Of a stretch of 63,145 nt of DNA, positions 19,219-39,445 are shown piece by piece. A model generated the notes under the pieces. That model saw only the letters and a list, made by a program, of their open reading frames with translations, searched no databases and was not told where the DNA came from. Where the stretch lies: positions 1-63,145 of the IMG/VR virus record IMGVR_UViG_3300050821_013320. One strand, 5' to 3'. The stretch is from a virus. Position numbers and translations under genes: made by a program. Within the stretch, counting starts at the first letter, position 1; the number at the start of each line of letters is the position of its first letter.

Positions 19219-19227
19219 CGACGATTT

Positions 19228-21553: not shown

Positions 21554-21903
21554 GCCAGACCAACGTGTTGGGCAGTCTCGCTATCGGTGTTGGACTTGGA
21601 ATTGCGACGATCTTCGTTGCTAACAAACTTCTTCCGAGTGGCGGATGGTGCCAACCTCAAACTGTGCCAGTTGCTCCGGGCTCAGTGCCGGTTGGTTTAA
21701 TGCCTCAGATCCCAAATGGCTATGTATTTTCGTCGTCAAATCCATTGTGTACGCAAACCGCAATGGGTTCGCCAGTGGCGCAATGGATTCCATGGATTGC
21801 CGCTCCGTTGATAGGATTTGCGGTCACTGGAAATATTTGGGGTTTGATCGGCGGCGGGCTAGTTGACGCTGGTGTAGCCGTAATGCTTTCGGGGCTGTCA
21901 TGA
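21550..21903 (+). CDS. Membrane protein (117 aa)
   Basis: Starts MSQTNVLGSLAIGVGLGIA with a membrane helix, a polar middle with two cysteines (GWCQPQ, NPLCTQT), then two more hydrophobic stretches (WIPWIAAPLIGFAVTG and IWGLIGGGLVDAGVAVML). Overlaps the previous stop. A partial R box (GAGGCCAAAACATG) follows it. Confidence 0.55.
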   Translation: MSQTNVLGSLAIGVGLGIATIFVANKLLPSGGWCQPQTVPVAPGSVPVGLMPQIPNGYVFSSSNPLCTQTAMGSPVAQWIPWIAAPLIGFAVTGNIWGLIGGGLVDAGVAVMLSGLS

Positions 21904-21916
21904 GAGAGGCCAAAAC

Positions 21917-22654
21917 ATGCTAATGCCCCGCGGCTTGGGCCTCACCTGTCCATCAGGACAGCAGCCAACCAACATGTACGACGGCTCCGTCTCCTGTTGC
22001 GGAGTTCCGGGAACACCGTGTTTGGCCGATCCCTGCTGCATTCTGAATAACCCCGGATTCATTGCGGAGCAAAATGCGCAAGTCGCACAGGATATAGCAA
22101 GCATCCCAGCATCTTCGTTTGAAGGACAGACCTTGCAAGCCCTGATGAGCGTGCCGACCAACATCGGTGAGGACGCCGTGAAATGCCAATCAAATCCGGG
22201 TCTGACGTTCGTTGATAACGCTGGCGTCACGATCACGTGTCCGTCTCCCTCTCATTCGGATCTGACTACGGGCGGGCAGCCGATGTCCACGTTCACGACC
22301 GGGCAACTCGCACAGATGTTGAATTCGCAATTTGGCGGGCAGGCACCGCAGACTGCGGGCGAGACTCCGTTTTTCTCTCCGAGCACGACTGTTCCGGCTG
22401 CCACGATCAAGGCGGTGGTTCCGAAAACCACGGTGGCCGGATCGGGAACGCAACCCGCGGGCGGCGGTTCACCAGCTCCCGATGGATCGACTAACACGGG
22501 CGGATCAACTTCATCGAGTTCGAGCAGCAGCGGAGTGGATCTCTCGTTCCTCACAAATTCTTCGTTGATCAATGGCGTGCCGAATTGGATGGTCGGATTT
22601 GGCGCATTGGCGGCTTTGATCGTTCTTCCGAGTTTGATGGGAGGCCGACGATGA
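21917..22654 (+). CDS. Tail-anchored protein (245 aa)
   Basis: ATG at 21917 sits in a lone R box. Cys pairs near the N-terminus (LTCPSGQQ, SCCGVPGTPCLADPCC), a central helical part (GQLAQMLNSQFGGQ), a Ser/Gly-rich linker, and a C-terminal membrane segment (FGALAALIVLPSLMGGRR). Same layout as other proteins here. Confidence 0.6.
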   Translation: MLMPRGLGLTCPSGQQPTNMYDGSVSCCGVPGTPCLADPCCILNNPGFIAEQNAQVAQDIASIPASSFEGQTLQALMSVPTNIGEDAVKCQSNPGLTFVDNAGVTITCPSPSHSDLTTGGQPMSTFTTGQLAQMLNSQFGGQAPQTAGETPFFSPSTTVPAATIKAVVPKTTVAGSGTQPAGGGSPAPDGSTNTGGSTSSSSSSSGVDLSFLTNSSLINGVPNWMVGFGALAALIVLPSLMGGRR

Positions 22655-22801
22655 TGCTTTGGCCTCATTCGATAGCGATGTCCCCGTCCGATATAACGTT
22701 CGACCAGGAGATGGTTTTGTCCTTCGAAGGTAGAAAAAACCTCTCCTGGTCGGGCGATCTCAATCTGATCGAAGCCGAGAAATCGACGGAGGCCAAATCA
22801 T
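22654..22801 (+). mobile_element. Compact repeat element E1 (inverted pair, empty)
   Basis: R-L A-type unit at 22654-22710 and L-R G-type unit at 22743-22801 flank a 32-bp linker (GGTTTTGTCCTTCG then GGTAGAAAAAAC). The whole element is an open frame from ATG 22654 to the TGA at 22801, overlapping the stop before and the start after. Confidence 0.85.
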
Positions 22802-23339
22802 GAGCATCCTCGGATTAGGAGACGGAGCCTTCGACTTCGGAAACAACGACTCCGGCGCCTTCGCCAACTTCGGACCCGTGATTCTGCACGACGGAACACA
22901 CATCATCGATCCCGCGGGAACCCCGGCAACGGCTTCGCAGTGCGCTCCCTATCAGTGCGGAGTGGATCGCAATAACGCAGCGGCAATCTTCTGGTGCGGA
23001 TATTGGGGACAAGAAGGATTCGGCGGCGCGCAGCCGTGCATGTCTTCGCAGTGCGCTCCGTATCGAACTCTGATTCCCGGATGCAACATCGTGCAGCCGA
23101 GTCCGCTCAGACCCGACGCGCCGGTTCCGGTTCCAACGTTTCCGCCTCCGGTTTTAACGCCGGCGAACATTGTGCAACCGCTGCCTGATATCACCCAGGC
23201 GAATCAACATGTGCCGATTGCGACGGACGGCGGATGCCTTTGCGTGATCAGTTCGTTGATCAACAAAAATCCCCTGGTCGCGGTTCTGGCGCTCGTGGGA
23301 GCAACGGCGCTTTTGAGCAGCAGAAAGGGGCGGCGATGA
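22800..23339 (+). CDS. Tail-anchored Cys-rich protein (179 aa)
   Basis: Follows GGAGG of E1. Cysteine motifs recur (SQCAPYQCGVD and SSQCAPYRTLIPGC), then a Pro-rich stretch and a C-terminal hydrophobic segment (LVAVLALVGATALLSSRKG). The repeated SQCAPY suggests an internal duplication. Function unknown. Confidence 0.6.
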   Translation: MSILGLGDGAFDFGNNDSGAFANFGPVILHDGTHIIDPAGTPATASQCAPYQCGVDRNNAAAIFWCGYWGQEGFGGAQPCMSSQCAPYRTLIPGCNIVQPSPLRPDAPVPVPTFPPPVLTPANIVQPLPDITQANQHVPIATDGGCLCVISSLINKNPLVAVLALVGATALLSSRKGRR

Positions 23340-23665
23340 AAGACATGACGCCTATTCTGTGGATTACCGGGATTGGAGTTCTGGCGTACTACGGCTATCA
23401 GCAGGGATGGTTCGGAAATCTGACGGTGAGCGTTCCGACCGCGATTCCTCCCGCGAGTCCGCCATCGATCCCAATTGCCAGCGGTGGGGGCGCGAACATC
23501 GTGCCCGTTGGCGTGTTGACGCCGATTGAGCCGACGCCTGTGATTCCCGCTCCGGTCGTTAATCCGGTTCCTCCGGTCGCAAGCGCAACTCCGATTTTCG
23601 GTGGCGGTGGAAATCCGGTCTTCGTTGGAGTATTGTCTACGGGCGGTTGCGTGGGGTGCATGTAA
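23336..23665 (+). CDS. Membrane-anchored protein, paralogue 1 (109 aa)
   Basis: An N-terminal membrane segment ends in the motif YYGYQQGWFGNL, followed by a Pro/Val-rich extended region and a terminal GGCVGCM. The gene after it carries the same motif, so the two are tandem paralogues. Overlaps the stop before it. Confidence 0.6.
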   Translation: MKDMTPILWITGIGVLAYYGYQQGWFGNLTVSVPTAIPPASPPSIPIASGGGANIVPVGVLTPIEPTPVIPAPVVNPVPPVASATPIFGGGGNPVFVGVLSTGGCVGCM

Positions 23666-24309
23666 TGGCAAAAGATTACAGCTCTTTGATCGTTCTCGCG
23701 GGTGTTGGCGCACTTGGTTACTACGGGTATCAGCAGGGTTGGTTTGCAAACCTGTTTCCCGCTGCCGCCGCGCCGGGTTCTTCCGCTCCTCCGGTTCCGC
23801 CGACATGCAACGCTCCAAGCGTTCTCACAAATGGCGTGTGTGTCACTCCGGCGATCACTTCGGGAACCAATCCGCCGTTGCAGCAGCAGTCCTCGCCGCC
23901 TCCCGCGCCTCCGGTAACCACTCCTCCGGCTCCGAGCACCAGCGGACTGACAACGCAGGGGTCGCTCGCAGCATTGGCATTGGCCGCGCAAGCCGCGAGC
24001 GAGGGATTGCCGAACGCTGGTACCGCAACCTTGAACGCCGATCAGTGGAATTATTACTACGGGCATGTTCCGTCGTTCGTTCCCTCAGTCAACGGGGCCG
24101 CGGTGAACACATCATCGCTGTTCGATTTGGATCATGTATTTTTCCCGAATGGCCGTCCCGCGAATAACGCGAGTTACACGCAATACACCGCAGGTCAATT
24201 TATCGCCGCGCTTCAGAATGCCGGAGCAAGTTGGCCGGGACTTCAAGGGATTTCTGGATTTGGAAACTACTACGGAATCCCGGCTGGTCTGATTCATGGA
24301 GGGTACTAA
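23665..24309 (+). CDS. Membrane-anchored protein, paralogue 2 (214 aa)
   Basis: An N-terminal segment (LIVLAGVGALGYYGYQQGWF) matches paralogue 1. It continues with a Pro-rich linker and a C-terminal domain of about 110 residues (TATLNADQWNYYYGHVPSF, GLQGISGFGNYYGIPAG) with many Tyr. The extra domain could be the functional head. Confidence 0.6.
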   Translation: MAKDYSSLIVLAGVGALGYYGYQQGWFANLFPAAAAPGSSAPPVPPTCNAPSVLTNGVCVTPAITSGTNPPLQQQSSPPPAPPVTTPPAPSTSGLTTQGSLAALALAAQAASEGLPNAGTATLNADQWNYYYGHVPSFVPSVNGAAVNTSSLFDLDHVFFPNGRPANNASYTQYTAGQFIAALQNAGASWPGLQGISGFGNYYGIPAGLIHGGY

Positions 24310-24458
24310 TTTGTTGGCCTCATCGCGATTTCGAGGTTCTCGCGCCCGCTCCAGCGTTCGACCAGGAGATGGTTTTGTCTTCGGGAGTAGAAAAAATCTC
24401 TCCTGGTCGGGCGCTCATAAATTCCACGAAGCCGGAAAACCGACGGAGGCCAAAACAT
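24310..24458 (+). mobile_element. Compact repeat element E2 (inverted pair, empty)
   Basis: R-L A-type unit at 24310-24368 and L-R G-type unit at 24400-24458, linker GGTTTTGTCTTCGGGAGTAG, clearly related to that of E1. Ends 1 bp before the next ATG. Confidence 0.85.
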
Positions 24459-24626
24459 ATGCGTGAAGGACTCGCGGGCTGCTACTCCTGGGAACCGACC
24501 TTTACCGCTCCTCCGAATTGCGGAGGAACAAGCGGAAGCGGCGGTCAATCTTCGTGTCCCGATGCAACGTGGTTCTGGGTTCTTGCAGCCGTTGCCGCTG
24601 GGTATTTGATTTTTAAGAAAAACTGA
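24459..24626 (+). CDS. Small tail-anchored protein (55 aa)
   Basis: ATG at 24459 follows the R box of E2. Short Cys-containing ectodomain (LAGCYSWEPTFTAPPNCGG, SSCPDATWFW) and membrane segment (VLAAVAAGYLIFKKN). Stop overlaps the next ATG. Confidence 0.55.
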   Translation: MREGLAGCYSWEPTFTAPPNCGGTSGSGGQSSCPDATWFWVLAAVAAGYLIFKKN

Positions 24627-25087
24627 TGCGATTAGGCACTCCATATTTGCGCGCCGACGAATGGGGCCATCCGATCATCGGATTGGGAGACGACGCCGGT
24701 TTCTCAGTCGATAGCGGAATCGGAATCAACACTTCCGGCGTAATAGTCAACACGCCGACGACCGCGCAAACGGATTATGCTCTGAACGCTCTTGCACAGC
24801 AGGCCTGTGGCGATCAGGGCGGAATCTGGAACCCTTCCAATAATTCGTGCGCCGGAGGAGGCGGGTCGTCGGATTGTCCGGCTGGCTATATTCTGAGTGG
24901 ATTTAGCTGCGTAAAGGCACCCGTTACGGGCAGCAGTGGAGCTGCTGCATCTGGGGTTACTGCGCCAATTTGCCCCTCGGGTCAAACATGTTCAATCATC
25001 CCCGGCATCCCGAACACCAGCATTTATGTCGCACTCGCGGCAGTTGCGGCTCTGTTCCTTTTCGCAATGGGAGGAGGACGCCGATGA
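24626..25087 (+). CDS. Tail-anchored protein (153 aa)
   Basis: Helical N-terminal part (QTDYALNALAQQACGDQGG), a Gly/Cys-rich middle (SSDCPAGYILSGFSCVKAP, CPSGQTCSII) and a C-terminal membrane segment (YVALAAVAALFLFAMGGGRR). Overlaps both neighbours. Confidence 0.6.
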   Translation: MRLGTPYLRADEWGHPIIGLGDDAGFSVDSGIGINTSGVIVNTPTTAQTDYALNALAQQACGDQGGIWNPSNNSCAGGGGSSDCPAGYILSGFSCVKAPVTGSSGAAASGVTAPICPSGQTCSIIPGIPNTSIYVALAAVAALFLFAMGGGRR

Positions 25088-25479
25088 ACGCCTACCAGGT
25101 CCTCCAGATTTCTGAAACAGCCTCGGCGGAAGTGATACGCGCGGCGTGGACGGCGCTCGTTCGCGAGTGTCACCCGGATGGCCCGAAACCCAACGTTCGC
25201 CGAACGCAACTGTTGAACGAAGCCTACGCCACGTTGAAAGATCCGGTGAAACGGAAGGCGCTCGATCAGCAATTGAAGGCGGCAAAAGTCTCGAAGCCCG
25301 TTCGCGAAAAGCGACACCCGGCGCAAGAAAGCGCGTATCCTGCCGCCTATCCAGATCCATATGCAGGGATTTCGCAAGAAGACATAGACCAAGCGGTGGA
25401 GCACATGACTTCGAAAATGGATCCGATCGCGAAACTCGCGGTGAAGTTCGTTTACGGAAAAGCACGGAGGCGCGCATGA
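25084..25479 (+). CDS. J-domain (DnaJ-like) protein (131 aa)
   Basis: Residues 1-65 are a J domain: NAYQVLQISETASAEVIRAA, the HPD tripeptide in RECHPDGPK, and QLLNEAYATLKDPVKRKALD. The remaining 65 residues are basic and helical. It should recruit host DnaK, perhaps for assembly of the surrounding virion proteins. Starts on ATGA with the previous stop. Confidence 0.85.
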   Translation: MNAYQVLQISETASAEVIRAAWTALVRECHPDGPKPNVRRTQLLNEAYATLKDPVKRKALDQQLKAAKVSKPVREKRHPAQESAYPAAYPDPYAGISQEDIDQAVEHMTSKMDPIAKLAVKFVYGKARRRA

Positions 25480-25769
25480 GTCTCGTGGGAGTGGGGATGT
25501 ATCCGACTGATCCGTGCTTCGATCCCAACCGAGCATCATGGTTGCCGTACTGGATCGACAACACGACCGAATCCGCGTGCTACTACGGAACGGATTCTCT
25601 ACTCGGTCAAATGGGAGGAGTTGTCGGCGGGGCGGCCGGAACGGTTGCGAGCGGGGCGGCTAGCGCGGTTGCATCCGGCGTTGCGACTGGCGTCAGTAAC
25701 ACTTCAGCCAGCGGCCTTTTGCTGGTCGCGGCGGTTGGCGTGGCGGCGCTGTTTTTATTGAAGCGATGA
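25476..25769 (+). CDS. Tail-anchored protein (97 aa)
   Basis: ATG at 25476 overlaps the J-protein stop; the longer open frame is a shadow. N-terminal YPTDPCFDPNRASWLPYWID, a Gly/Ala/Val-rich helix (VVGGAAGTVASGAASAVASG) and a C-terminal membrane segment ending FLLKR. Confidence 0.6.
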   Translation: MSLVGVGMYPTDPCFDPNRASWLPYWIDNTTESACYYGTDSLLGQMGGVVGGAAGTVASGAASAVASGVATGVSNTSASGLLLVAAVGVAALFLLKR

Positions 25770-25779
25770 GGAGCACTTT

Positions 25780-26247
25780 ATGAGCTTAATCGGTTTGCGA
25801 GATTTCGTCGGCGGGCAGTTCGCGGTACCGGAAAATCCCGTCATGCGCGGGCAGGGCGTCGGCAGCCTCCGGGATTTCGTCGGCGGTTCGTTTGTCGTTC
25901 CAGAAAATCCGGTAATGCGCGGCGTCGGAAACTTCGTCCCCTCCGGTCCAATGTGGCCGATTCCGGCGAACTCCGTCATTACGGCATGGAAAGGCGCGGG
26001 CATGGCGGGCCTCGGCTGTGGGAGTTCCAAATCCGATTGTGGATGTGGATGCGGCGGACATTCCTCCGGCATGGGAACGTTTGATCCGATTGGCGCGTTC
26101 ACGACAGCCATTGCGGATGCGGGAACGGCACTTTCAACGATGTCGCTTGCTCCAATCACGGGAACCGATTGGATGGTTTTGGGAGGTAGCGCGGCTGTGA
26201 TTTATCTTATTGCGGATTCTCTGAGTAAGGGAGGACGTCGGCGGTAG
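25780..26247 (+). CDS. Tail-anchored protein with duplicated DFVGG motif (155 aa)
   Basis: Two tandem copies of LRDFVGG(Q/S)F(A/V)VPENPVMRG occupy residues 4-45. A Cys/Gly-rich spacer (SSKSDCGCGCGGHSSG) and a hydrophobic C-terminus (WMVLGGSAAVIYLIADSLSK) follow. The same motif (MGDFVSGKFAVPQNPVLDG) appears in the basic protein at 30986, suggesting a shared docking sequence. Confidence 0.6.
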   Translation: MSLIGLRDFVGGQFAVPENPVMRGQGVGSLRDFVGGSFVVPENPVMRGVGNFVPSGPMWPIPANSVITAWKGAGMAGLGCGSSKSDCGCGCGGHSSGMGTFDPIGAFTTAIADAGTALSTMSLAPITGTDWMVLGGSAAVIYLIADSLSKGGRRR

Positions 26248-26263
26248 TTTTCAAGTTCTTTTT

Positions 26264-26412
26264 ATGTTGGCCTCAGTCTATTTTCGTTCTTCGCGTCGGT
26301 TCGATAGCGTTCGACCAGGAGTGGTGTTTTCTCATCTCAGTAAGAAAACTTTCCTCATGGTCGAACGCTCTCAATTCCGCGCGCAGCGAGGTGCCCGATG
26401 AGGCCAAAACAA
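26264..26412 (+). mobile_element. Compact repeat element E3 (inverted pair, empty)
   Basis: R-L unit at 26264-26321 and L-R unit at 26354-26412 (L box has a CTCATGG variant), both A type. The linker (GTAAGAAAACTTTC) is related to E1. An open frame runs ATG 26264 to TGA 26401, overlapping the next ATG at 26398. Confidence 0.8.
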
Positions 26413-27201
26413 AATCCCCGTTCTTTCGATCGCTGCGTCAAAGCCGTCTCCAAATCCGGTTCCGCAATTTCTCCCTACGCTGTCTGCAAAGCACAGGCAC
26501 AACGGAGAGGAACGAAAAACCCCGGACTCAACGCAATGCTGGCCGCGCTTCCCCATTCCACTCTTGGGAAGAAAGCCGGCGCTGCTCTCAAACGGTATTT
26601 CTCCGCAAAAAACCCGGCCGACAAATCCGAAGAAATGTACGAGATGTTCCACGGAATGCCGCCCGATGAAATCCTCACGATCGTCGAGCGCGTGCACGTT
26701 CACAAAAACCTGTGGACCGTGGGAACCCTCACGCAAATGGTGATTCAGACCTTCAACGGCAAGCAGTTCGACCTGGACGCTCCGGACCCGGACGAAGCGC
26801 GAGATACCGAAGTGGTATACGTCACGGCGAACGAGCCCTACACAGATAAAGACACCGGCAAAAAGATCGAAGGCGGAACGCAGATGTTCTTCCGCGGCGG
26901 CGATCAGGAGATTCCCGAATCGATCCTCAAAAGCCGGTGCGGATTCAACGACGACGATTTCAAGGAGCAGATGATTATCGGCTGGGTCGTCGACCTCACG
27001 TATCGAACAAAGAAGATTTTCGAAAAGAACGGAGAGGAGCTCGTCGACTTCGTTCACCCGCTCGGCAAAGAACACTCGCGCGGTGTGTTTCCGCTGCTGG
27101 TATACAAGCCACGGGATCCGAGCATGGCGTTGTTCGGCGGGCGTTACAAAGTACTGCCGGTGCGTGGAGATATTGGAGCGAGTCCGGGGATTGCGGGATG
27201 A
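26398..27201 (+). CDS. Hypothetical protein (267 aa)
   Basis: Starts on the ATG inside an R box (MRPKQNPRSFDRCVKAVSKS), the N-terminus being basic like a processed virion protein. Central part helical, C-terminal 150 residues alpha/beta (VVYVTANEPYTDKDTGKKIE, MIIGWVVDLTYRTKKIFEK). No recognised domain. It lies among structural genes. Stop overlaps the next start. Confidence 0.55.
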   Translation: MRPKQNPRSFDRCVKAVSKSGSAISPYAVCKAQAQRRGTKNPGLNAMLAALPHSTLGKKAGAALKRYFSAKNPADKSEEMYEMFHGMPPDEILTIVERVHVHKNLWTVGTLTQMVIQTFNGKQFDLDAPDPDEARDTEVVYVTANEPYTDKDTGKKIEGGTQMFFRGGDQEIPESILKSRCGFNDDDFKEQMIIGWVVDLTYRTKKIFEKNGEELVDFVHPLGKEHSRGVFPLLVYKPRDPSMALFGGRYKVLPVRGDIGASPGIAG

Positions 27202-27710
27202 ATAATAATTTGGCCTCATCGGACCTGTCGGCTTCGACCGCGCCTGAGAGCGTTCGACCAGGACAGGAACCTGTCATTAGCAGATGGATGGCGGAAGAGT
27301 ATCACATGCTTCCATCGGACGCGGTTGCGCTCCTAACGTTTAGCAGAAAAGACAACTCTCTTCTGGTGATGAACTGTTTTGAACGAACCGATGGAACATT
27401 TCGGCGGATTGATAACTTCGCCGCATGGGTACCATCCGAAGAGTTCTATTTAGCACGTAGAATACGGATTTCAGAGGAAGCAAAACCGCCGTATGAACAG
27501 GTGCTAGATGTGCTGGCCGGGCGGTTGCTGAGTGCGTTCTTAACCTATCGCTACGACGTCGATGTGAAACCGGAAGAGTTATATTCGTCAAACGACAAAG
27601 AGGCACTTCTACAACAGATCCGGTGGAATATCCGAAAGTTTGTTAAACCTCTCCTGGTCGGGCGCTCTCAACCTGACGGCTCTCCCAATTCGACGGAGGC
27701 CAAAACATGA
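27198..27710 (+). CDS. Cassette gene: hypothetical protein (170 aa)
   Basis: ATG at 27198 overlaps the previous stop. Head (NNNLASSDLSAST...SVRPGQE) and tail (PLLVGRSQPDGSPNSTEAKT) are repeat-encoded. The core of about 125 residues is alpha/beta (VALLTFSRKDNSLLVMNCFE) with a basic helix near the end. Function unknown. Confidence 0.6.
   Translation: MNNNLASSDLSASTAPESVRPGQEPVISRWMAEEYHMLPSDAVALLTFSRKDNSLLVMNCFERTDGTFRRIDNFAAWVPSEEFYLARRIRISEEAKPPYEQVLDVLAGRLLSAFLTYRYDVDVKPEELYSSNDKEALLQQIRWNIRKFVKPLLVGRSQPDGSPNSTEAKT
27206..27709 (+). mobile_element. Repeat-bounded cassette 11
   Basis: R-L A-type unit at 27206-27264 (CAGGACAGG variant) and L-R G-type unit at 27651-27709. Cargo is the gene 27198-27710. 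Confidence 0.8.
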
Positions 27711-27952
27711 ACGACTTGATGACATTTGCGAAAACAGTGCCGTACTTTCCACCGAACTCCTGTGCATGGGGACATGCCGCTCTTGGGTTTGGTGTGGGCT
27801 TTGTCGAACCGTGGGCGCAAGCGGTGGGGATTGCTCTGTTCGTCGCGTATGAAGCGATGCGCGATAAACCGATGAACGAGAAAATCGGCGCCGTTGCGGA
27901 GTTCACGACCGGGTTTTTAGTGCAGAAAGTCGCTTTCGGAGGGAAGCAGTAG
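27707..27952 (+). CDS. Small membrane protein (81 aa)
   Basis: ATG lies at the R end of cassette 11 after GGAGG. Hydrophobic middle (HAALGFGVGFVEPWAQAVGI, ALFVAYEAM) suggests one or two membrane helices with a soluble helix at the C-terminus. Function unknown. Confidence 0.5.
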   Translation: MNDLMTFAKTVPYFPPNSCAWGHAALGFGVGFVEPWAQAVGIALFVAYEAMRDKPMNEKIGAVAEFTTGFLVQKVAFGGKQ

Positions 27953-29085
27953 TGAATTTCATTTTCTTGAGCGTTCCGACATTCGAGCCGTGGGATTGGA
28001 CCAATCCCGATGTCAAAGGCATCGGCGGATCGGAGACCTCGCATATCGAAATGTCGAACCGGCTTTCGGATCGCGGACACTCGGTCTATTCGTACGGGCC
28101 GACGCCGTTCGAAGAACCGCGGCTGAATCCGCACGGGGTCACGTGGGAGCGCTGTGATCACGATTCGAACATCTGGCGGCGTCATGGTGTCTGGGTTGTC
28201 TATCGCGATCCGCAATCGATTGACGATATCGATCCCTCGAATCCTTCATGGCTGATCTGCCAGGATGTCGACTATCCGCAGTTGACGCAGGAGCGGGCCG
28301 CGAAGTTTACGCGCATCGTCGCGCTTTGCGAAACACACGGCCGGTATCTTCGCCAGAAGTACCCAACGGCGAACATTTGCGTTTCTTCGAACGGCATCAA
28401 GTCGGAATTGATCGCCGAGGCGCTGAAGAATCCGCCGGCGCGGAATTCCAAACGCCTGATGTACGCCTCAAGTCCCGACCGCGGCCTGCTGTACCTGTGC
28501 GAAATCTTCAAACGCGCGAAAGAACTGATGCCGGATCTCGAATTGCACGTGTACTACGGCTTCAACAACATCTCGAAGGTTGAAGAGTGCAATCCCGGAG
28601 TTAGAACTCGTACGAATGAAATCCGGCGCGCACTCGATCAGGAAGGTATCACCGACAACGGCCGCATGGGGCAGCCGGAGCTGATTCAGGAGTGGCTCAA
28701 GGCAGGTATCTGGTGTCACCCGTCAAGTTTCACGGAAACCTCCTGCATCACGTGCATGGACGCGCAAGCCCTCGGCGCCGTGCCGATCACAACCCCAGTG
28801 TGGGCAATCGCGGACAACGTAGAGCACGGCATCTTCATCGAAGGCGATCCCTACACCGATAACCTGACGCGTGCGCGATACACCCTGGAACTGATCCGGC
28901 TTGCACAAGATCTGGAACGTCAAGAAACAATCCGCGCCGAGATGATGCCCTACGCACAAGCGCGTTTCGGTTGGGAGAATTTCGTTGATCAGTGGGAAGT
29001 GTGGGCGCGCGAAGACTATTACCGCTCCTGGTCGGGCGCTCAAAATAACGCCGAAGTCGCGGCGCTCGTGGAGGCCAACGTATGA
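27952..29085 (+). CDS. Family 4-type glycosyltransferase (377 aa)
   Basis: GTG start at 27952. N-terminal NPDVKGIGGSETSHIEMSN is the donor-side glycine loop; SKRLMYASSPDRGLLYLCEI starts the second Rossmann domain; CHPSSFTETSCITCMDAQAL is the EX7E-like region. A GT-B retaining enzyme that moves a sugar from a nucleotide donor. Its last 17 residues (SWSGAQNNAEVAALVEANV) are encoded by a G-type repeat unit. Confidence 0.85.
   Translation: MNFIFLSVPTFEPWDWTNPDVKGIGGSETSHIEMSNRLSDRGHSVYSYGPTPFEEPRLNPHGVTWERCDHDSNIWRRHGVWVVYRDPQSIDDIDPSNPSWLICQDVDYPQLTQERAAKFTRIVALCETHGRYLRQKYPTANICVSSNGIKSELIAEALKNPPARNSKRLMYASSPDRGLLYLCEIFKRAKELMPDLELHVYYGFNNISKVEECNPGVRTRTNEIRRALDQEGITDNGRMGQPELIQEWLKAGIWCHPSSFTETSCITCMDAQALGAVPITTPVWAIADNVEHGIFIEGDPYTDNLTRARYTLELIRLAQDLERQETIRAEMMPYAQARFGWENFVDQWEVWAREDYYRSWSGAQNNAEVAALVEANV
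29035..29083 (+). repeat. Repeat unit, L-R, G type (solo, in coding sequence)
   Basis: Shorter than usual (about 49 bp; the R box reads GTGGAGGCCAACGTATG). It encodes the C-terminus of the glycosyltransferase and carries the ATG of the methyltransferase. Confidence 0.8.
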
Positions 29086-30325: not shown

Positions 30326-30327
30326 CC

Positions 30328-30681
30328 ATGGCAATGGTCGTTAACTATTTGAACGTGGGCGGGCCGGGAAATGTACCTCCAACCTTGGCTCAGGCCCTCA
30401 ACGTCAACACCGTGAACGTTTCCTTGAGCCCCGCGGCTTCAGGCGATAACTCACAGGTGATTACTCACAACTTCGGTTTACCCAATTCCGATATTTCGGC
30501 GGGTTGGCCGGAGACCGTCATCAACGGATTGGACACGCTGGCCACGCTTTCCCTGTGGTACATCTTGAGCCAAAATCCCAACTTCTCAATTGTTGCGAGA
30601 GGAGCAAACACGGCCGGCATCGATACTGCGAATGCACAGGTTCTGGTGTCGATTTCGAGACCGCATTCAATCGTCCGCTGA
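30328..30681 (+). CDS. Beta-rich hypothetical protein (117 aa)
   Basis: AAAAGGAG precedes the ATG. Sequence is beta-rich (VNTVNVSLSPAASGDNSQVI, ATLSLWYILSQNPNFSIVA) and of a size for a single small jelly-roll or capsid decoration protein. No homologue recognised. It begins the strongly expressed-looking set 30.3-39 kb with good ribosome binding sites. Confidence 0.55.
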   Translation: MAMVVNYLNVGGPGNVPPTLAQALNVNTVNVSLSPAASGDNSQVITHNFGLPNSDISAGWPETVINGLDTLATLSLWYILSQNPNFSIVARGANTAGIDTANAQVLVSISRPHSIVR

Positions 30682-30685
30682 TTTT

Positions 30686-30834
30686 ATGTTGGCCTCAGTC
30701 AAAACCGGTCTTCTTGCGGATTCTCTACCGTTCGACCAGGAGAAGTCCTTCGCCTTCGCGGGTAGAAAAAACTACTCCTGGTCGGGCGCTATCGATCCGC
30801 ACGAAGCCAGAAATGCGGAAGGAGGCTAAAACAT
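30686..30834 (+). mobile_element. Compact repeat element E4 (inverted pair, empty)
   Basis: R-L A-type unit at 30686-30742 and L-R G-type unit at 30775-30834; linker CTTCGCGGGTAGAAAAAACT. The same linker occurs in reverse in E6 at 49.9 kb. Confidence 0.85.
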
Positions 30835-30985
30835 GTTTATCAACCGAGTAACCAAAGTCGTTAATCCGCGGTTCGCACCCTCTCATCCGGGAGAAGTCCG
30901 ATCCGTGGCCAACAGGCGAAGCAATTCGTCGAACCCACCGCACATGCTGACGCTGGGTTTTATCAATCCCAAAGGAGAAGTCATA

Positions 30986-31561
30986 ATGGCAAGAACCAAA
31001 CGTCGTCGTGCCAGCAGACCGCGCCGCGCGTCGGCTGTCAATCGGCGTCGTAATCCGCATCGTCGTTCGTCTCACCGTCGCCGGAGCCACAATCCCGCCC
31101 ATCGCCGGGTCGTGGCCATTCATCATCGGCGGCGTCGGAGTCACAACCCCTCGATCATGGGACAGAAACCCATGAAACTGGTCGAGGATCTCGCAGCCGG
31201 AATTATCGGCTTGACCGCGAACAATGCGATCATGGCCGCGCTTCCGTCGTCATTGACCGGCAATACCGGGATGGCGATCGCCACCTCGGCCGCCGTCGCC
31301 ATCGGATCGGGATATCTCGCTTCGATGGTCAACAAGGAATTCGGCAAGTACGTCGGCTTCGGCGGACTGCTCGCAACGACTCAGCTCGCCATCAACGCGG
31401 CGTTCCCCAACGGGATCATGTCCGCGATTGGAATGGGCGACTTCGTCTCCGGCAAATTCGCCGTGCCTCAGAATCCGGTTCTCGACGGAAATCTGACGGT
31501 CGGCGGACCCACCGGCGGGGGAGTCATGACCTACGCGTACCCGGCCGCATACGCAGCTTGA
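30986..31561 (+). CDS. Arg-rich protein with hydrophobic domain (191 aa)
   Basis: AAAGGAG at 30971 sets the ATG at 30986; the frame is open back to 30833 in element E4. Residues 1-55 are extremely Arg/His-rich (RRRASRPRRASAVNRRRN, HRRSSHRRRSHNPAHRR) and should bind nucleic acid. The rest has several hydrophobic helices and the motif MGDFVSGKFAVPQNPVLDG. A genome-binding membrane protein of a virion is plausible. Confidence 0.65.
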   Translation: MARTKRRRASRPRRASAVNRRRNPHRRSSHRRRSHNPAHRRVVAIHHRRRRSHNPSIMGQKPMKLVEDLAAGIIGLTANNAIMAALPSSLTGNTGMAIATSAAVAIGSGYLASMVNKEFGKYVGFGGLLATTQLAINAAFPNGIMSAIGMGDFVSGKFAVPQNPVLDGNLTVGGPTGGGVMTYAYPAAYAA

Positions 31562-31641
31562 CCAACAGGCCCATTCTTTCGCAATACGTCGGGCTGACTC
31601 GGCGGCATGGCGCGGGAATGATTTGAAAAGGAGAAAATAAA

Positions 31642-32346
31642 TTGCCACTACCCGGCACCGCTCAAATGACCACTGCGGGCTACCCGCAGAATAACCAGAC
31701 CGCGGCTATGGTCGCAGCTCAGGCGGCGCAAAACGCCGTCGCCGCGATCACCGCGCAACAGCAGTTCATCATCAATTCGTTCCGCGGGCAGATTTACATC
31801 TCGAATCAGCTCGACGTCGAAGACACGCCGGTGTACGACACTGTAACGTACACCGCAGGTCAGACCGTGACGCTCACCAATGCGTCGTGGTTCACCAACG
31901 TCGAAGGCAATTCGGGAAAAACGTTTGCCCAAACCAACATGGACACCAACGGCCGTCTTGACGCGCCCGAGGCTTTCTCCGTGTTCGGAGTCCGCTTCAA
32001 CTGGTCGGAAGGTATTCTGCGCTCCGATCTGCAAACCTTGCTCGATTCGTGGGCGTTTGAATTCTGGCTGGGAAAGAAAAACTACCAGCGCGCCAATATC
32101 CGCCACTTCTCCTCGGGGATGGGGATTTCGGGCTACACCACCAAAACCGCGGAGTCGTTCTACACCAACGGCGTTCCCGGCCGTCAGTCGATGAACATGC
32201 TTTCGGTTAAACTGGTGATCGCGAACCAAATGTCGTTTGAGGCGTTTCTGTCCGGCAACAATTCCGGCCAGGTTCTATCATCTTCGGGTGCGGGGGCAAT
32301 CCTGTACGTGGAGTTGGTGGGACTGTACGCACGCGGCGTTCAGTAA
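31642..32346 (+). CDS. Candidate major virion protein (234 aa)
   Basis: A strong AAAAGGAG precedes a TTG start. A Gln/Ala-rich helix (MVAAQAAQNAVAAITAQQQF) is followed by a beta-rich body (DTVTYTAGQTVTLTNASWF, ESFYTNGVPGRQSMNMLSV). The order of helix then beta-body, the gene position and the good ribosome binding site fit a capsid or major surface protein. No homologue was recognised; this is inference. Confidence 0.45.
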   Translation: MPLPGTAQMTTAGYPQNNQTAAMVAAQAAQNAVAAITAQQQFIINSFRGQIYISNQLDVEDTPVYDTVTYTAGQTVTLTNASWFTNVEGNSGKTFAQTNMDTNGRLDAPEAFSVFGVRFNWSEGILRSDLQTLLDSWAFEFWLGKKNYQRANIRHFSSGMGISGYTTKTAESFYTNGVPGRQSMNMLSVKLVIANQMSFEAFLSGNNSGQVLSSSGAGAILYVELVGLYARGVQ

Positions 32347-32485
32347 TCGAAGGTGGGAGCGGTAGTTCTGGGAGGAACGTTCTCCACTTTTAGATTTCCT
32401 TTGTGATTCAGCCCACAGAGGGAGTGCGGGGGTCCGGGTTTGATTGCCCCTCCGACGGTTAGGCCTCGGACCACCGCAGCAACGT
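32347..32485 (+). promoter_or_regulatory. Intergenic region with hairpins
   Basis: Contains a near-palindrome GGAGGAACGTTCTCC and a hairpin GGTCCG ... CGGACC about 40 bp apart, without a T-run. It lies between two presumed structural genes and could be a terminator or processing site. No open frame is convincing here. Confidence 0.3.
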
Positions 32486-32627
32486 TATTTTGGCCTCATC
32501 GGGCGCTTGTCTATTACCGAATGTTGGAGCGTTCGACCAGGAGGAGTGTTTCATGAAAACCGAAGTCGCCGTGTCGAGAAATAAAACGTAGTTCGAAGCC
32601 GGGATGTAGAACGAGGCCAAAACAAAA
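32486..32627 (+). mobile_element. Repeat element, inverted pair, nearly empty
   Basis: R-L A-type unit at 32486-32543 and L-R type-3 unit at 32566-32627 (GTGTCGAGAAATAAAACG and GAACGAGGCC). Spacer of about 22 bp holds an ATG after GGAGGAG. Unlike E1-E6 its right half is type 3. Confidence 0.7.
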
Positions 32628-32637
32628 GGAATTTAAA

Positions 32638-33099
32638 ATGTCCAGCTATCCAATGAACCAATTCGCACCAGACTACTTCCAAGGTCTCGCCGTCGATCCG
32701 AACGCTTCCGCGGAACCGAAGCCCTACGACTACATTTACAATCCTCCGAACAACCAACTGACCGCGCTGCAATCGTTGAGCGGACAAACCGTTCCGATTC
32801 AGACGGACGCAGATTTCTACATGTTCGGCTGGTATATTTCGCTTTTCACGGGCGCGTTTCAGGTGCGCTTGACCGATGCGACGGGCTACCAGTTGCAGAG
32901 CGGCTTCATCAACTCCGGAGCGCTCTCGCAAGCCTCGAATGATCCGACGATTTTCTCTCCGTCGCATTTGTTTCCGGCTGGATCAAAGATCTTGATCGAC
33001 ATCACGGACCTGTCGAACGCCACGAATTCTCTGCAAATTGTGTTCAAGGGAATCAAGTTGTATAAGATTACGGGACGGGGGCCACTCAAGGCGCAATGA
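32638..33099 (+). CDS. Beta-rich candidate virion protein (153 aa)
   Basis: AAAGGAATTT precedes the ATG. Strand-rich throughout, ending SKILIDITDLSNATNSLQIV then FKGIKLYKI. The end motif (hydrophobic, then G-x-K-L-Y) also ends the proteins at 35941 and in 37257, so the three share a fold, possibly a jelly-roll. Confidence 0.55.
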   Translation: MSSYPMNQFAPDYFQGLAVDPNASAEPKPYDYIYNPPNNQLTALQSLSGQTVPIQTDADFYMFGWYISLFTGAFQVRLTDATGYQLQSGFINSGALSQASNDPTIFSPSHLFPAGSKILIDITDLSNATNSLQIVFKGIKLYKITGRGPLKAQ

Positions 33100-33500
33100 T
33101 GTTTTGGCCTCATCGTAGTTCGGTCTTCGCGCGGGCGCGGTCGCGTTCGACCAGGAGGGGTTTGTGAGTAGCCACACGCACACCTACGTCACACTGGAAA
33201 TCAGCGCCGTTGGATACGATGAGATAGCCCGTAAACTTCGCGCCGCCGACTACGGACATTGCTTCAATTCTGCGGGTGAAATCGACCTGACCGGGATTGC
33301 AGTGGTTCGCGCTCCAGATCGACCACGACGAATCGTGACTCCTGATGGAGAAGATAATATCTGGTGTCCGAATTGCGGTGGAACCCACTACGGATCACTC
33401 CATTGCCCCTACTCAGCAGAGCAGGGCGCGGCATTTAAAGCGGCCGCTGTCGAGAACTCTCAATCCGAACAAGCCGCAACTCCGAACGAGGCCAAAACAT
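33099..33500 (+). mobile_element. Repeat-bounded cassette 12
   Basis: R-L A-type unit at 33099-33157 and L-R type-3 unit at 33442-33500. Cargo is the gene 33164-33502. Confidence 0.8.
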
Positions 33501-33502
33501 GA
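33164..33502 (+). CDS. Cassette gene: zinc-binding hypothetical protein (112 aa)
   Basis: GTG start 6 bp after AGGAGGGG of the L box, the clearest case of the repeat acting as ribosome binding site. Beta-rich N-terminal part, then CPNCGGTHYGSLHCPYS, a zinc site. The tail AAVENSQSEQAATPNEAKT is a translated type-3 unit. Confidence 0.65.
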   Translation: MSSHTHTYVTLEISAVGYDEIARKLRAADYGHCFNSAGEIDLTGIAVVRAPDRPRRIVTPDGEDNIWCPNCGGTHYGSLHCPYSAEQGAAFKAAAVENSQSEQAATPNEAKT

Positions 33503-34002
33503 GCACACCCGCCTACCCAATCATCGACGGCTTCGTACTCAAAACGCTTTTACGCTGCAATCTCACCTTCGGAGCATTAGCAATCGAGCAGTACGAAGAT
33601 CTCCGTCGATCTCGCGCGCTTCGCTCCAAAGGCTGGTGCGTTCCGAACGATCCCAGTTCCCAATCGGTTCCCAAGTTCGACTCCTACGAATATCAGGTGT
33701 GGATGAAACCGGGCTCCGCAATCTGGGGCTACACATTCACCGGCGATTCAACGGCGGGCGGCAACGGCGGTATCGATTCCTTCCAAGTCCGTGAGACGTG
33801 CTCCGACGTTCCGCTGTTTTCTGAATCCGTTACAAAAAAACCGGAGTCTGCGAACTTCTGGGGCAAGACCTGGGCGCGCCAGCAGTACCTTTCAGAATTG
33901 CTGATTGTTCCGGCTCCGGGCCTGCTGCATGTTGAGATTGCGACTACTGCTCCCGTGAACAGAGCAATTCAGCTTATCCTGTGGGGAGGGGAGCCAGCCT
34001 AA
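33499..34002 (+). CDS. Beta-rich candidate virion protein (167 aa)
   Basis: ATG overlaps the previous stop. Sequence is beta-rich with aromatic residues (YQVWMKPGSAIWGYTFTGD, LLHVEIATTAPVNRAIQLIL) and ends LWGGEPA. Similar in length and style to the gene at 32638. Possibly a minor capsid or spike protein. Confidence 0.5.
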   Translation: MSTPAYPIIDGFVLKTLLRCNLTFGALAIEQYEDLRRSRALRSKGWCVPNDPSSQSVPKFDSYEYQVWMKPGSAIWGYTFTGDSTAGGNGGIDSFQVRETCSDVPLFSESVTKKPESANFWGKTWARQQYLSELLIVPAPGLLHVEIATTAPVNRAIQLILWGGEPA

Positions 34003-34004
34003 AT

Positions 34005-34277
34005 ATGCCTTTTTCTTTGGCCTCATCGAACACCGCAGTTCCCGCGCCCGATCCAGCGTTCGACCAGGAGTCGGTTTTGTCCTTGGCTCGTACATGGGGA
34101 CCGAGTCTTCGAATTCCGAAGGGGTTGTGTCTCCGAATGACAATACACCCAGCAACCCACTGGTCTCCAAAACGGTGTGAAATGGAATTATTTTCTCCCG
34201 ATAGCCCAGAAGAACTTCTCCTGGTCGGGCGCTCAAAAATCGAACAAGCCGGAAAGCCGACGGAGGCCAAAACATAA
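34005..34277 (+). CDS. Cassette gene: small hypothetical protein (90 aa)
   Basis: The head MPFSLASSNTAVPAPDPAFD and the tail ELLLVGRSKIEQAGKPTEAK are repeat-encoded. The unique core is about 45 residues (LARTWGPSLRIPKGLCLRMT) and may not be a functional protein. Stop is followed directly by the next ATG. Confidence 0.4.
   Translation: MPFSLASSNTAVPAPDPAFDQESVLSLARTWGPSLRIPKGLCLRMTIHPATHWSPKRCEMELFSPDSPEELLLVGRSKIEQAGKPTEAKT
34012..34275 (+). mobile_element. Repeat-bounded cassette 13
   Basis: R-L A-type unit at 34012-34070 and L-R G-type unit at 34218-34275. The first bases after L (GGTTTTGTCCTTGGC) resemble the linker of E1 and E2, so this looks like an E-type element carrying an insert. 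Confidence 0.75.
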
Positions 34278-35254
34278 TGCCCAGAGGCCTAGCAGACATC
34301 ACTCCCTTAAACGTACCCTCGGGAGCATTTGATCCCTATACTCCACAAGGCCAATCCGGCTGGATCATGGGAAACGACGGAAACTGGCACTGGTCCTCAG
34401 CCACAAACACGGCTCCGAACCTGAATTTTCCCGTCACGAAAGGGCCGGGAGTACCATCAAACGCCGGTTGGGTTACCGGGCCAACGACACAAGCTGGCTT
34501 CGGACCCGATCAAAACTGGTACTGGACCGGCCCTGGAACGCGTCCCACGGTGCTGCCAGGCGCTTTCATTCCACCCGGCACGATGCCTACGACACCTTTT
34601 CCGGCGACAGGAATGCCCCACAACTGGACGCCGCAGCCGATCCTGCCTGATTCGATGCTCCCGGCGCCGCTCGCGCGTTCAAACCCGCTTTTACAGCCAG
34701 CGCAATTCATTCCGAACCGCTACGACTTCGACATCTTCAAGCGCGCGAAAAAATGGGATTGGATTGCAAAACATGGCGGGTTGAAATCCTGTTGCCGCAT
34801 TCCGGAATTGGGCGCACCCCTCTACGACGATCCGCCGTGGGAAGTCATGCCGCCGAACGCGGTGCCGATCCCCGGCGAGATGGCGGGCCTATCGACCGCT
34901 ACAATCCCCTTCACGGGCGCAAACACGCTGATTCTCTCGATTCAGGTGCCTTCAGGGTATGACGGAGTCATTAATAAGTTCATCGCAGCTCTGACGGACG
35001 TTACGGGCCATGTGGATTTCTCTGGAGACGTCGTCTGGCGGCTGCAATACGGCGTCCGGTACGCGAAAACGCTCGGAAACGTGACAAACACGTACGGATC
35101 GTTCACGAACTCGCTGCTCGTTCCGGGTGTTTATTCGATCAAAGTTCTTTCCGGTCAGACAATTCAGGTTTTTGCCAGTATTCCGGCAATGTCGCCTATC
35201 GCAGGTGGTTCGGTAAGTGCTGGTGTCTTTGGATGGTTTTATCCGAGACGTTAG
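34277..35254 (+). CDS. Candidate spike or capsid protein (325 aa)
   Basis: The N-terminal 140 residues hold Trp/Gly/Pro-rich repeats (WIMGNDGNWHWSSATNTAP and WVTGPTTQAGFGPDQNWYWT). The C-terminal 170 residues are beta-rich (TLILSIQVPSGYDGVINKFI, VWRLQYGVRYAKTLG) and end FGWFYPRR, like a jelly-roll head. A stalk plus head would suit a receptor-binding protein (inference). Confidence 0.5.
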   Translation: MPRGLADITPLNVPSGAFDPYTPQGQSGWIMGNDGNWHWSSATNTAPNLNFPVTKGPGVPSNAGWVTGPTTQAGFGPDQNWYWTGPGTRPTVLPGAFIPPGTMPTTPFPATGMPHNWTPQPILPDSMLPAPLARSNPLLQPAQFIPNRYDFDIFKRAKKWDWIAKHGGLKSCCRIPELGAPLYDDPPWEVMPPNAVPIPGEMAGLSTATIPFTGANTLILSIQVPSGYDGVINKFIAALTDVTGHVDFSGDVVWRLQYGVRYAKTLGNVTNTYGSFTNSLLVPGVYSIKVLSGQTIQVFASIPAMSPIAGGSVSAGVFGWFYPRR

Positions 35255-35310
35255 ACGATGTTCGTTTGGTTCCATGTTCGTGCACTGGAACCCGGCAGGT
35301 AACCTCATAC

Positions 35311-35556
35311 ATGTCAATCAACGATGAAAACTGCTTCCGAAAAGAAGATCGCGATGAGTTGCTAAAGCAAGGCTGGCAATTGAGCGCGATCGTCAAGACG
35401 CTCGAAGAGATGAAAGGAACATTCAAGGAAAACGCGATTGACTGGGAGCAACGAATCCGCGCACTCGAAAACTTCAAGTGGATCGTTTGGGGTATGGGTT
35501 CGATTGGCGGGATTCTGGTAGGGTATATTTTACAGTTGATGATCGGCAGAAAATGA
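35311..35556 (+). CDS. Coiled-coil membrane protein, XhlA-like (81 aa)
   Basis: ATG at 35311 starts MSINDENCFRKEDRDELLKQ. A coiled coil (SAIVKTLEEMKGTFKENAI) leads to a C-terminal membrane segment (WIVWGMGSIGGILVGYILQL). The pattern fits small phage lysis-associated membrane proteins of the XhlA type. Overlaps the next start (ATGA). Confidence 0.55.
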   Translation: MSINDENCFRKEDRDELLKQGWQLSAIVKTLEEMKGTFKENAIDWEQRIRALENFKWIVWGMGSIGGILVGYILQLMIGRK

Positions 35557-35807
35557 CGGATGCGGTGGAAATTGCGCTGATCGGCGCCCTCGCCGGAGTC
35601 CCAACGATGGTGGGGGCAATCGCGGCGGCGTGGTTTTCCTACAAGGCATCCACACATTCTCGCGAAGCGATTAGCGTTGCGAAGGAGACGCAGCGCAACA
35701 CCAACGGCCTTAAGGATCAACTGGTAGCGCTGACGAAAAAGTCCTCTTATGCGGAGGGTAAACTGGCGGGCGAACAAAGTCACACGCCGGAGGATGTGGA
35801 AGAATGA
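35553..35807 (+). CDS. Holin-like membrane protein (84 aa)
   Basis: One N-terminal membrane segment (IALIGALAGVPTMVGAIAAAWF) and a polar helical tail. Between an XhlA-like gene and a lipoprotein-like gene, it could belong to a lysis set with the GH25 enzyme, though that gene lies far away. Confidence 0.5.
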   Translation: MTDAVEIALIGALAGVPTMVGAIAAAWFSYKASTHSREAISVAKETQRNTNGLKDQLVALTKKSSYAEGKLAGEQSHTPEDVEE

Positions 35808-35944
35808 AAAACCGAATATTGTTCGGCTGCCTCCTGTTGGCTCTAGCCTGGTGGGGACGTGATGGCGTGCGCAAGAAAGAGGCCGCTGTCGAGAAGTCTC
35901 AAGCCCATCAAGCCGAGATTTCGAATGAGGCCAACACAAAATGA
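35804..35944 (+). CDS. Small lipoprotein-like or membrane protein with type-3 tail (46 aa)
   Basis: MKNRILFGCLLLALAWW is a short hydrophobic N-terminus with a cysteine that could serve as a weak lipobox. The tail AAVEKSQAHQAEISNEANTK is the type-3 repeat. Stop overlaps the next ATG. A spanin-like role is possible but unproven. Confidence 0.4.
   Translation: MKNRILFGCLLLALAWWGRDGVRKKEAAVEKSQAHQAEISNEANTK
35881..35941 (+). repeat. Repeat unit, L-R, type 3 (solo)
   Basis: GGCCGCTGTCGAGAAGTCTC then GAATGAGGCC. Encodes the tail of the gene 35804-35944; the next gene starts at its end. Confidence 0.85.
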
Positions 35945-37107
35945 AAACCCAACCCTACGCGCCGCCTCCCGGTACCTACGATTTACCCTTCACATGGGCC
36001 TTTGACGCATCCGGTTTCGCAGACGGTTCAAACCCGACAAACTCCTCGATTTACCTGCAAGGCGGCTACGGAGATTTCAAACTTCGCCGCGTGGTGGGAT
36101 TGAACCGCATCCTCGCGGCAGACAAAACCGGCCAATTCCAGATTCAGCGCGCGTCCAAGGGATCTTACATCCAATCGGATCCGGTGATGGCTGAAAACTC
36201 TCCGGAGCTCGCGATCTCGCCCGAGGAGCCGTACATCGAAACCGGCAAGATCTGGTTTGATCTGTTCGGAATACTCAAACCGGCCGGGCAGCCGCTAACA
36301 GCGCAACTGGCATTCCAGGGAAGCCGGCGGATGAAGGGCAATCCCCCGCCTCGGCCGGACTATCCGAATCAGCCGAAGTCCTACACCTACATCGTTCCGG
36401 CGATCCTCACCCAAGTCGCCTCCGCGAATGCGCCCGTTATCACAAAAACGCTGATCACCGATTACGATTTTGAGTTGCACAACATCATCCTGTTGCAGAA
36501 AGCAAGCGGAGGCCCGGCCCTTCTGTTTAATGAAACCGGCAACGTCATGCAAATTACGTCGGTCGCCGGACATTCAGGAACGTTGACGATAGTTAATCCT
36601 CCCGCGAATCCAGGTCCAGGTGGACCTTTTCTCTCCAATCAGCCGTTCCTTTTTTCCGTCGTTGGATCAGTTGCCACGGTCACACCGGCAACGAACGCCG
36701 GCGGTTTCATTAGCACGGTCCTCGCCGATATAATCACTGCGTTCAACACGAACGTGACGATGTCGACGCTGGGATTTGCTTCGCCTTTGGGAACCGCGAC
36801 GTTACCCGATCCGCAATCAGTCTCCTGGGGCGCCGGCGGCGGTTTCATCGGAATCACTTCGCCGATTTGTTCCTTATTCGTGTACGATCAGAACAAATAC
36901 AAGACATCAAATCTTCCGATCCTCGACATCTTTTACAACGGAGGGTCAGGTAGTCCGTACCAGAATGGCGCGCTCGTTCCGCCGCTGTTCTATCCGCGAA
37001 ACACCATCTTGCAGATCGACTTCTACTCTCAAATCACGAATGCTTCACTGCTTCCGACGCAGGTAGTTGCCTATTTGGTCGGGAAGAAATTGTATCCATG
37101 TGGATGA
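35941..37107 (+). CDS. Candidate virion protein A (388 aa)
   Basis: N-terminal block (PPPGTYDLPFTWAFDASGFA, LRRVVGLNRILAADKTGQFQ, SKGSYIQSDPVMAENSPEL) is repeated almost unchanged in the second half of the next large gene. The C-terminus ends VAYLVGKKLYPCG. Beta-rich with no signal peptide. Likely structural, possibly a spike or capsid vertex protein. Confidence 0.55.
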   Translation: MKTQPYAPPPGTYDLPFTWAFDASGFADGSNPTNSSIYLQGGYGDFKLRRVVGLNRILAADKTGQFQIQRASKGSYIQSDPVMAENSPELAISPEEPYIETGKIWFDLFGILKPAGQPLTAQLAFQGSRRMKGNPPPRPDYPNQPKSYTYIVPAILTQVASANAPVITKTLITDYDFELHNIILLQKASGGPALLFNETGNVMQITSVAGHSGTLTIVNPPANPGPGGPFLSNQPFLFSVVGSVATVTPATNAGGFISTVLADIITAFNTNVTMSTLGFASPLGTATLPDPQSVSWGAGGGFIGITSPICSLFVYDQNKYKTSNLPILDIFYNGGSGSPYQNGALVPPLFYPRNTILQIDFYSQITNASLLPTQVVAYLVGKKLYPCG

Positions 37108-37257
37108 TGGTTTGGCCTCATCGTAGTCAAGTCTTCACGCGACTTCCCTACCGTTCGACCAGGAGAAAGTGTGCGTCTGCGAGTGTGGTAAAAAACCTCT
37201 CCTGGTCGGGCGCTCTCGATCTGATCGAAGATGGGAATCGGACGGAGGCCAAATAAT
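37107..37257 (+). mobile_element. Compact repeat element E5 (inverted pair, empty)
   Basis: R-L A-type unit at 37107-37165 and L-R G-type unit at 37199-37257. An open frame of about 50 codons runs through it, from the ATG overlapping the previous stop to TAA at 37254, directly followed by the TTG start of the next gene. Confidence 0.85.
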
Positions 37258-39107: not shown

Positions 39108-39117
39108 AAAGCACTTC

Positions 39118-39176: not shown

Positions 39177-39213
39177 GGAAAGTTCGAGTCTCTAATACAG
39201 AAGGGATTTCCAA

Positions 39214-39435: not shown

Positions 39436-39445
39436 TGGTTTAGCC

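Follow-up and report, generated by a model that had tools for sequence, protein, structure and literature searches.

The window analyzed here is an entire IMG/VR virus record (IMGVR_UViG_3300050821_013320, hereafter G000) of 63,145 bases, and its genes are punctuated by a dense array of short repeated units with a modal length of 53 bp. Positions 1-337 recur imperfectly, with a single 3-bp gap, at about 62806-63145 as a terminal direct repeat (about 340 bp); the record is probably near-complete. Genes were called by us with a simple codon model. Among named phages no close relative of the virus was found; comparisons draw on close relatives (G001, G002, G003, G005, G006, G007, and G009), which were found through the unit patterns and core proteins, and on a wider clade (G011-G019). 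These relatives are metagenomic contigs, some of them incomplete fragments, in which orthologous ends were extrapolated from tblastn; the close relatives are colinear with the window, and the protein identity of the relatives ranges from 40% to 90%.

Each unit has two different conserved ends, L and R, and follows the consensus aAaaCCnCTCCTGGTCGaaCGctc, about 12 variable positions, cgcGaAgcc, a second variable stretch, and cccgaTGAGGCCAAAncAt. A strict fuzzy scan of the 63,145 bp recovered 72 units, against 0-3 in 20 Markov-sampled controls, which rules out a chance origin of the array, and a looser scan that includes the C and D variants recovered 80. Neighboring units switch strand at 66 of 78 steps (mean of 39.2 when shuffled, with none of 10,000 shuffles as high), bearing out the alternating orientation reported in a preliminary description of this DNA, and R ends face outward in 28 pairs, so that its figure of over 20 cassettes holds. 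The interval in which it placed the system (22654-37257) contains five pairs that lack cargo (E1-E5; table 1); a sixth (E6) and most of the units lie outside it, and the array spans the genome. Two other origins of the repeat were considered and rejected. Neither units nor empty pairs behave as a conserved peptide, as the open frame is not the same in all copies and is missing from a few, although unit-encoded tails are present on some cargo proteins and on a serine recombinase. A search for a cellular origin gave 95 pattern matches in 85,000 genomes, and at the loci that were re-scanned there is no array, the matches seeming to be accidental or to stem from coding sequence.

The units are closely fitted to gene boundaries. 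Of 252 R ends, 109 have a start no more than 16 bp away (24% of random positions do) and 91 have an opposing stop at such a distance (6.6% of random positions). On the start side the ATG mostly falls 3 bp after GAGGCCAA (54 starts at that distance), and on the stop side the stop codon of the opposing gene is most commonly 4 bp away; read toward the cargo, the L end is CCAGGAGGGGTTTT, followed in many cassettes by GTG or ATG. Because R ends meet starts and stops about equally, the units have no fixed polarity with respect to transcription. The R ends are of two kinds, with GGAGG-type ends at starts and stops in a ratio of 35:6 and TGAGG-type ends in a ratio of 38:68 (P = 4e-8), and the enrichment of the former at starts indicates that the module has probably been tuned in this lineage to act as a ribosome-binding site before genes. 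As a general account of the R end, a Shine-Dalgarno role is only partly true: it fits the GGAGG ends at starts here, whereas in G017 the Shine-Dalgarno sequence lies outside the unit.

Six pairs without cargo and with linkers of about 30 bp had been described, and six were found, with linkers of 33-35 bp. E6, once reverse-complemented, aligns with E1-E5, with a mean column identity of 76% over the six, and the linker sequence said to be common to E4 and E6 is indeed present in both (TTCGCGGGTAGAAA, reverse-complemented in E6). The arms of a pair are not identical, which corrects the earlier account: five of the six empty pairs combine one GTCGAACG arm (A) with one GTCGGGCG arm (B). G000-G003 and G005 together carry 18 empty pairs, 137-142 bp long, with a mean pairwise identity of 0.71 and, in most, the linker core CTTCG(C/A)GGGTAGAAA; aligned as had been proposed, the empty copies form one family from end to end.

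Table 1. Unit array, empty pairs, filled cassettes, and recombinase gene in the window.
Feature	Position	Strand	Composition
Whole array	2907..62397	both	about 72-80 units; core genes between R ends, cargo genes between L ends
Empty pair E1	22659..22796	+	A unit 22659-22709 (-), 34-bp linker, B unit 22744-22796 (+)
Empty pair E2	24314..24453	+	A, 33-bp linker, B
Empty pair E3	26267..26407	+	A/A, 34-bp linker
Empty pair E4	30689..30829	+	A, 34-bp linker, B
Empty pair E5	37112..37252	+	A, 35-bp linker, B
Empty pair E6	49903..50044	-	B, 34-bp linker, A
Filled cassette	3550..3911	-	cargo ORF 3543-3914 (-)
Filled cassette	19233..19922	+	A unit 19233-19285 (-), ORF 19316-19858 (180 aa), B unit 19870-19922 (+)
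Filled cassette	27210..27703	+	A unit, 388 bp cargo, B unit
Filled cassette	33104..33495	+	left A unit, cargo 33164-33502 (112 aa), right D-type unit 33445-33495
Filled cassette	34017..34270	+	149 bp between L ends
Filled cassette	42628..43377	-	cargo 42656-43351 (-), right unit 43325-43377
Small serine recombinase (Resolvase, PF00239), core gene	44087..44755	-	candidate for a role on the units

Comparison of homologous loci for empty and filled states had been set beforehand as the test of mobility, and its outcome was positive: orthologous junctions are bare, empty, or filled depending on the virus. Junction 18517|19926 holds an empty pair in G001, G002, and G005 (linkers of 33, 31, and 33 bp) and the 180-residue open reading frame (ORF) between units in the window; junction 26398|27707 is bare in G001 and G009 and carries units and cargo in the window; and slot 33499|34277 (the cassette at 34017) is empty in G003 and occupied in G001 and G002 by C-type pairs with other cargo. 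The empty pairs of the window vary in the same way. E1 separates two core genes (21923-22654 and 22800-23339) that are joined directly in G001, G002, and G005 (with an ATGA overlap in G001 and G005); the E2 slot contains an empty pair in G001, a C-type pair with a 10-bp linker in G009, and no pair in G002 or G005; the E3 slot is filled in G001 (C/C, 253 bp); the E4 slot is also empty in G002 and G003; and G001 has an empty pair 3' of the same gene as E5. Cassettes fixed at the same place in all relatives, the pattern that would have spoken against mobility, are clearly not what these genomes contain.

What differs between viruses at a slot is chiefly the cargo. In 13 comparisons of slots with different or absent cargo, similarity is 0.58 in the core gene, 0.87 at the R end, 0.72 in the unit interior, and 0.88 at the L end, and falls to background level at the first 40 bp of cargo (0.47, then 0.40, for a background of 0.42); unit interiors are also more alike between orthologous slots (0.66) than between random units (0.49). 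In the cassette at 42628, for example, the interior of the right unit is 0.95 similar to that of G001, and the cargo is unrelated to the G001 cargo. Given this break at the L edge and the likeness of orthologous interiors, the units are most probably inherited with the slot, with cargo replaced at their inner edge, and it would therefore be mainly cargo, not the palindrome, that moves. Homologous cargo occupies nonorthologous slots in at least four cases: G001 41069|43383 and G002 52487|58873 (57% over 128 aa), G007 2655-3119 and G002 43383|6046 (70% over 112 aa), and G001 7469|8660 and G007 58873|56938 (55% over 61 aa) share cargo, homologs of the cargo at 33164 are found one slot further on (33499|34277) in both G001 and G002 and, in G001, also in its own slot, and the cargo of the cassette at 3550 has a homolog at junction 25780|26398 in G001. 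Genes bounded by L ends are also much less conserved than those bounded by R ends, with a homolog in G001 or G002 for 11/25 against 39/46 (P = 0.0008) and in both for 3/25 against 28/46 (P = 6e-5).

Taken at the level of sequence, these patterns make it probable, in our judgment, that the units are modules that mark the borders of gene slots and stay with them, in a cassette system through which this clade of uncultured double-stranded DNA viruses exchanges accessory genes by recombination. The R end of a module would abut the start or stop of a core gene and the L end an accessory gene, two modules in mirror orientation would constitute one slot, and recombination between modules, within a genome or between coinfecting viruses, would swap, add, or delete cargo at the L edge, leaving core genes with their start and stop context intact. 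Such recombination can exchange cargo because the modules of one virus have the same ends. An empty pair of 140 bp would be a slot without cargo, specific to its lineage and with a short linker of its own, and new empty slots would occasionally be gained; on grounds of parsimony, E1 is better read as the gain of a whole pair than as three losses. We infer both the causal part of module recombination and the kind of enzyme, be it one of a general pathway (homologous or annealing recombination) or a dedicated factor; a general pathway acting between repeated blocks is enough to account for what is observed. A DNA-level role as recombination boundaries is favored, since there is no polarity to transcription, cargo is exchanged at the L edge, and the ends are lineage-specific.

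Several observations weigh against this interpretation. The gain of a complete empty pair at E1 is not accounted for by exchange at the L edge alone. Within the junction already described (27201|27707), G002, G003, and G005 have inserts without units, and cargo may therefore also arrive otherwise. No recombination event was caught at nucleotide resolution between near-identical genomes. Finally, clade relatives G013, G015, G018, and G019 have no dense unit family, and the system must therefore be dispensable.

The wider clade indicates which features of the module are held constant. Units of G014 and G017 have the ends CGGGGAACGACC (L) and GTCGCCAAAC (R), those of G012 have GCGCGAACG and GAAGAGCGCCAAC, and G007 and G009 have only the CTGTCGA type, a minority type in G000. 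Despite the different end motifs, unit length in G012, G014, and G017 is mostly 52-54 bp, the position at junctions is kept, and R ends are once more divided about evenly between starts and stops. These three genomes contain no 34-bp empty pairs, and because distant relatives have the slot architecture without them, the 140-bp empty pair seems to have been derived within its own lineage and not to be the ancestor of all cassettes; the proposal that an empty palindrome was the form whose copies later gained genes is accordingly not upheld. Two further loci of the window have their homologs in this wider clade. The four-ORF block at 1023-2893 lacks homologs in G001 or G002 and is 52-73% identical to the distant relative G013, which we read as probable exchange across the clade, and a helicase-methyltransferase fusion (45782-48310) is full length in no close relative and matches G013 at 59%.

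A fixed length combined with changing ends suggests either coevolution with a reader protein or genome-wide homogenization. A bolder idea is that of a dedicated viral system of cassette exchange, a dispersed counterpart of the integron, in which a virus-encoded trans-acting factor reads the lineage-specific ends and swaps single accessory genes between mirrored modules at defined slots while module length and the signals of neighboring genes are kept; we offer this only tentatively and regard it as doubtful.

A more specific proposal, that the conserved serine recombinase (table 1) acts on the modules in an integron-like or invertase-like cassette exchange, appears unlikely. Recombinases of the resolvase/invertase family do occur in G000, G001, G002, G007, G012, G014, and G017, all of which bear units, and lineage-specific end motifs are what would be expected if the ends followed a specific protein. 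However, the recombinase is present without dense units in G013, G015, G018, and G019, and units are present without it in G004 (where a 127-b terminal repeat suggests completeness) and in G011 (which is incomplete). No 26-28-bp dyad typical of serine recombinase sites was recognized in the L block, and no orientation flips of core genes were noticed among the relatives, a feature not scored systematically. The inconsistent co-occurrence speaks against this enzyme as the sole cause, and since each occurs without the other we do not assign the activity to it. The gene is itself in contact with the array: the unit at 44099-44152 encodes its C-terminal tail (LASS..VRPG), and the recombinases of G001 and G002 have similar unit-encoded tails.

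The preliminary description had put forward, as one possibility, a MITE- or REPIN-type element. On such a view a transposase supplied in trans would mobilize the 140-bp palindrome, which would have captured its cargo later. The presence of E1 in G000 and its absence at the same junction in G001, G002, and G005, the end-to-end alignment of the 18 empty pairs, and the ATGA on both sides of E1, which resembles a short target-site duplication, are in keeping with this view; stop/start overlaps account for the ATGA repeats equally well. A Y1/RAYT transposase (PF01797) was found in none of nine records, with control genomes positive, although the host might supply one in trans. The pairs are confined almost entirely to gene junctions, where the R end is most often 3-5 bp from a start or stop. 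Additionally, units stay in their slots while cargo changes, and other lineages have the architecture without empty pairs. A transposase of the IS1595 family (ISXO2-like; 55747-56658) is present in G000 only among the nine records, while every close relative has units. We consider transposition of the palindrome quite improbable. The transposase adjoins a gene (56938-58056) whose homology to relatives ends at residue 242.

Least credible, and very unlikely in our view, is a role in RNA, with inverted modules as intercistronic hairpins (terminators, RNase III sites, or translational couplers) and cargo turnover as ordinary phage mosaicism: empty pairs fold strongly (-61 to -66 kcal/mol, z of -4.4 to -7.2), the differences between A and B are G-U compatible in the operon strand, and GGAGG-type R ends are Shine-Dalgarno-like at starts, but an arm pairs no better with its own partner than with the arms of other pairs (P = 0.93-0.95 for complementarity), which leaves an RNA role without covariation support and rejects a hairpin selected as RNA, single units fold barely better than shuffled ones (mean z of -0.6 to -0.9), and both the lack of fixed polarity at R ends and the external Shine-Dalgarno sequence of G017 are against it. 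A search for known RNA families gave a single match, a tRNA.

Other features of these genomes are recorded for completeness. The window encodes a sigma-70-like factor with regions 2 and 4 (4469-5539; 84% identity in G001 over 63 aa). The proteins at 50046-52400 and 52487-53458 resemble one and the same homolog (in G001, G002, and G007) over its first ~140 residues, beyond which they diverge; this looks like a modular anchor plus a variable part, and a 300-bp DNA repeat (76%; 35965-36264 and 38376-38675) is a paralogous stretch between two neighboring large genes. A capsid candidate (31642-32346) gave a poor fold (pLDDT 51) with meaningless fold matches. In G007 (L032:16039-18825) a HerA/FtsK-like ATPase gene has a long, intein-like in-frame insertion that ends VTHN|SGKT at the Walker A motif, and at one end of contig G008 (L034:26-480) a 12-bp sequence (CTCAGCGGTCgg/ga) is repeated in tandem about 40 times.

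It has long been asked how phages can swap single genes and keep their operons unbroken, and the usual answer is random recombination plus selection. The present clade has physical boundaries around many optional genes, so that a record of exchange is readable from sequence, and its mirrored slots suggest gene swapping that is built in and leaves the neighbors undisturbed; end motifs that change between lineages at conserved length offer a way to seek the factor that reads them. The same design was not found described in the literature searched, and the known systems each share part of it. Integrons carry accessory genes one to a cassette, each cassette exchangeable and set behind a conserved recombination-like site, and the exchangeable single accessory genes are common to both; the modules differ in having mirror-paired ends in place of one attC each and slots dispersed among core genes in place of one array, and a tyrosine integrase/IntI (PF00589) was found in none of the nine records. 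The MPME mobile elements of mycobacteriophages are likewise very small phage elements that have inverted ends and are carried by some relatives but not by others; they are, however, about 440 bp long with their own 123-residue ORF and are scattered across clusters (PMC4351075), whereas the modules form arrays that bound every second gene. REPINs consist of two inverted short units around a short spacer (PMC3116915), as do the six empty pairs with their 33-35-bp linkers; the modules differ in lacking a RAYT/Y1 gene, in their placement at viral gene junctions, and in serving as cassette boundaries.

The SAS and ESAS repeats of cluster K mycobacteriophages are tied to translation starts, half of them with an upstream inverted repeat, and have one end resembling a ribosome-binding site; SAS, at 13 bp, is confined to the start side in nearly always one orientation, and the presence of ESAS follows gene family (PMC3203893). 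The modules, in contrast, also flank stops (the 91 R ends noted above), alternate in orientation, and stay with the slot when cargo changes. Closer still are the PeSLs, "mobile regulatory cassettes" of T4-type phages (Arbiol et al. 2010; Comeau et al. 2014; cited in PMC4503421 and PMC3950731, which also mention a similar motif in haloarchaeal HGTV-1). As described in these citing papers, PeSLs are short intergenic sequences reiterated across regions of accessory ORFs and are credited with gene shuffling between related phages, and they are set apart by an early promoter with a stem-loop and by transcriptional polarity. Reiteration at the boundaries of shuffled accessory genes is found here and fixed polarity is not; the modules instead have two distinct ends, form mirror pairs around cargo, and occur at starts and stops equally. 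Judged from those descriptions, PeSLs are the nearest published kind and probably share the same working principle, carried out in this clade by mirrored, two-ended modules with no evidence of promoter polarity.

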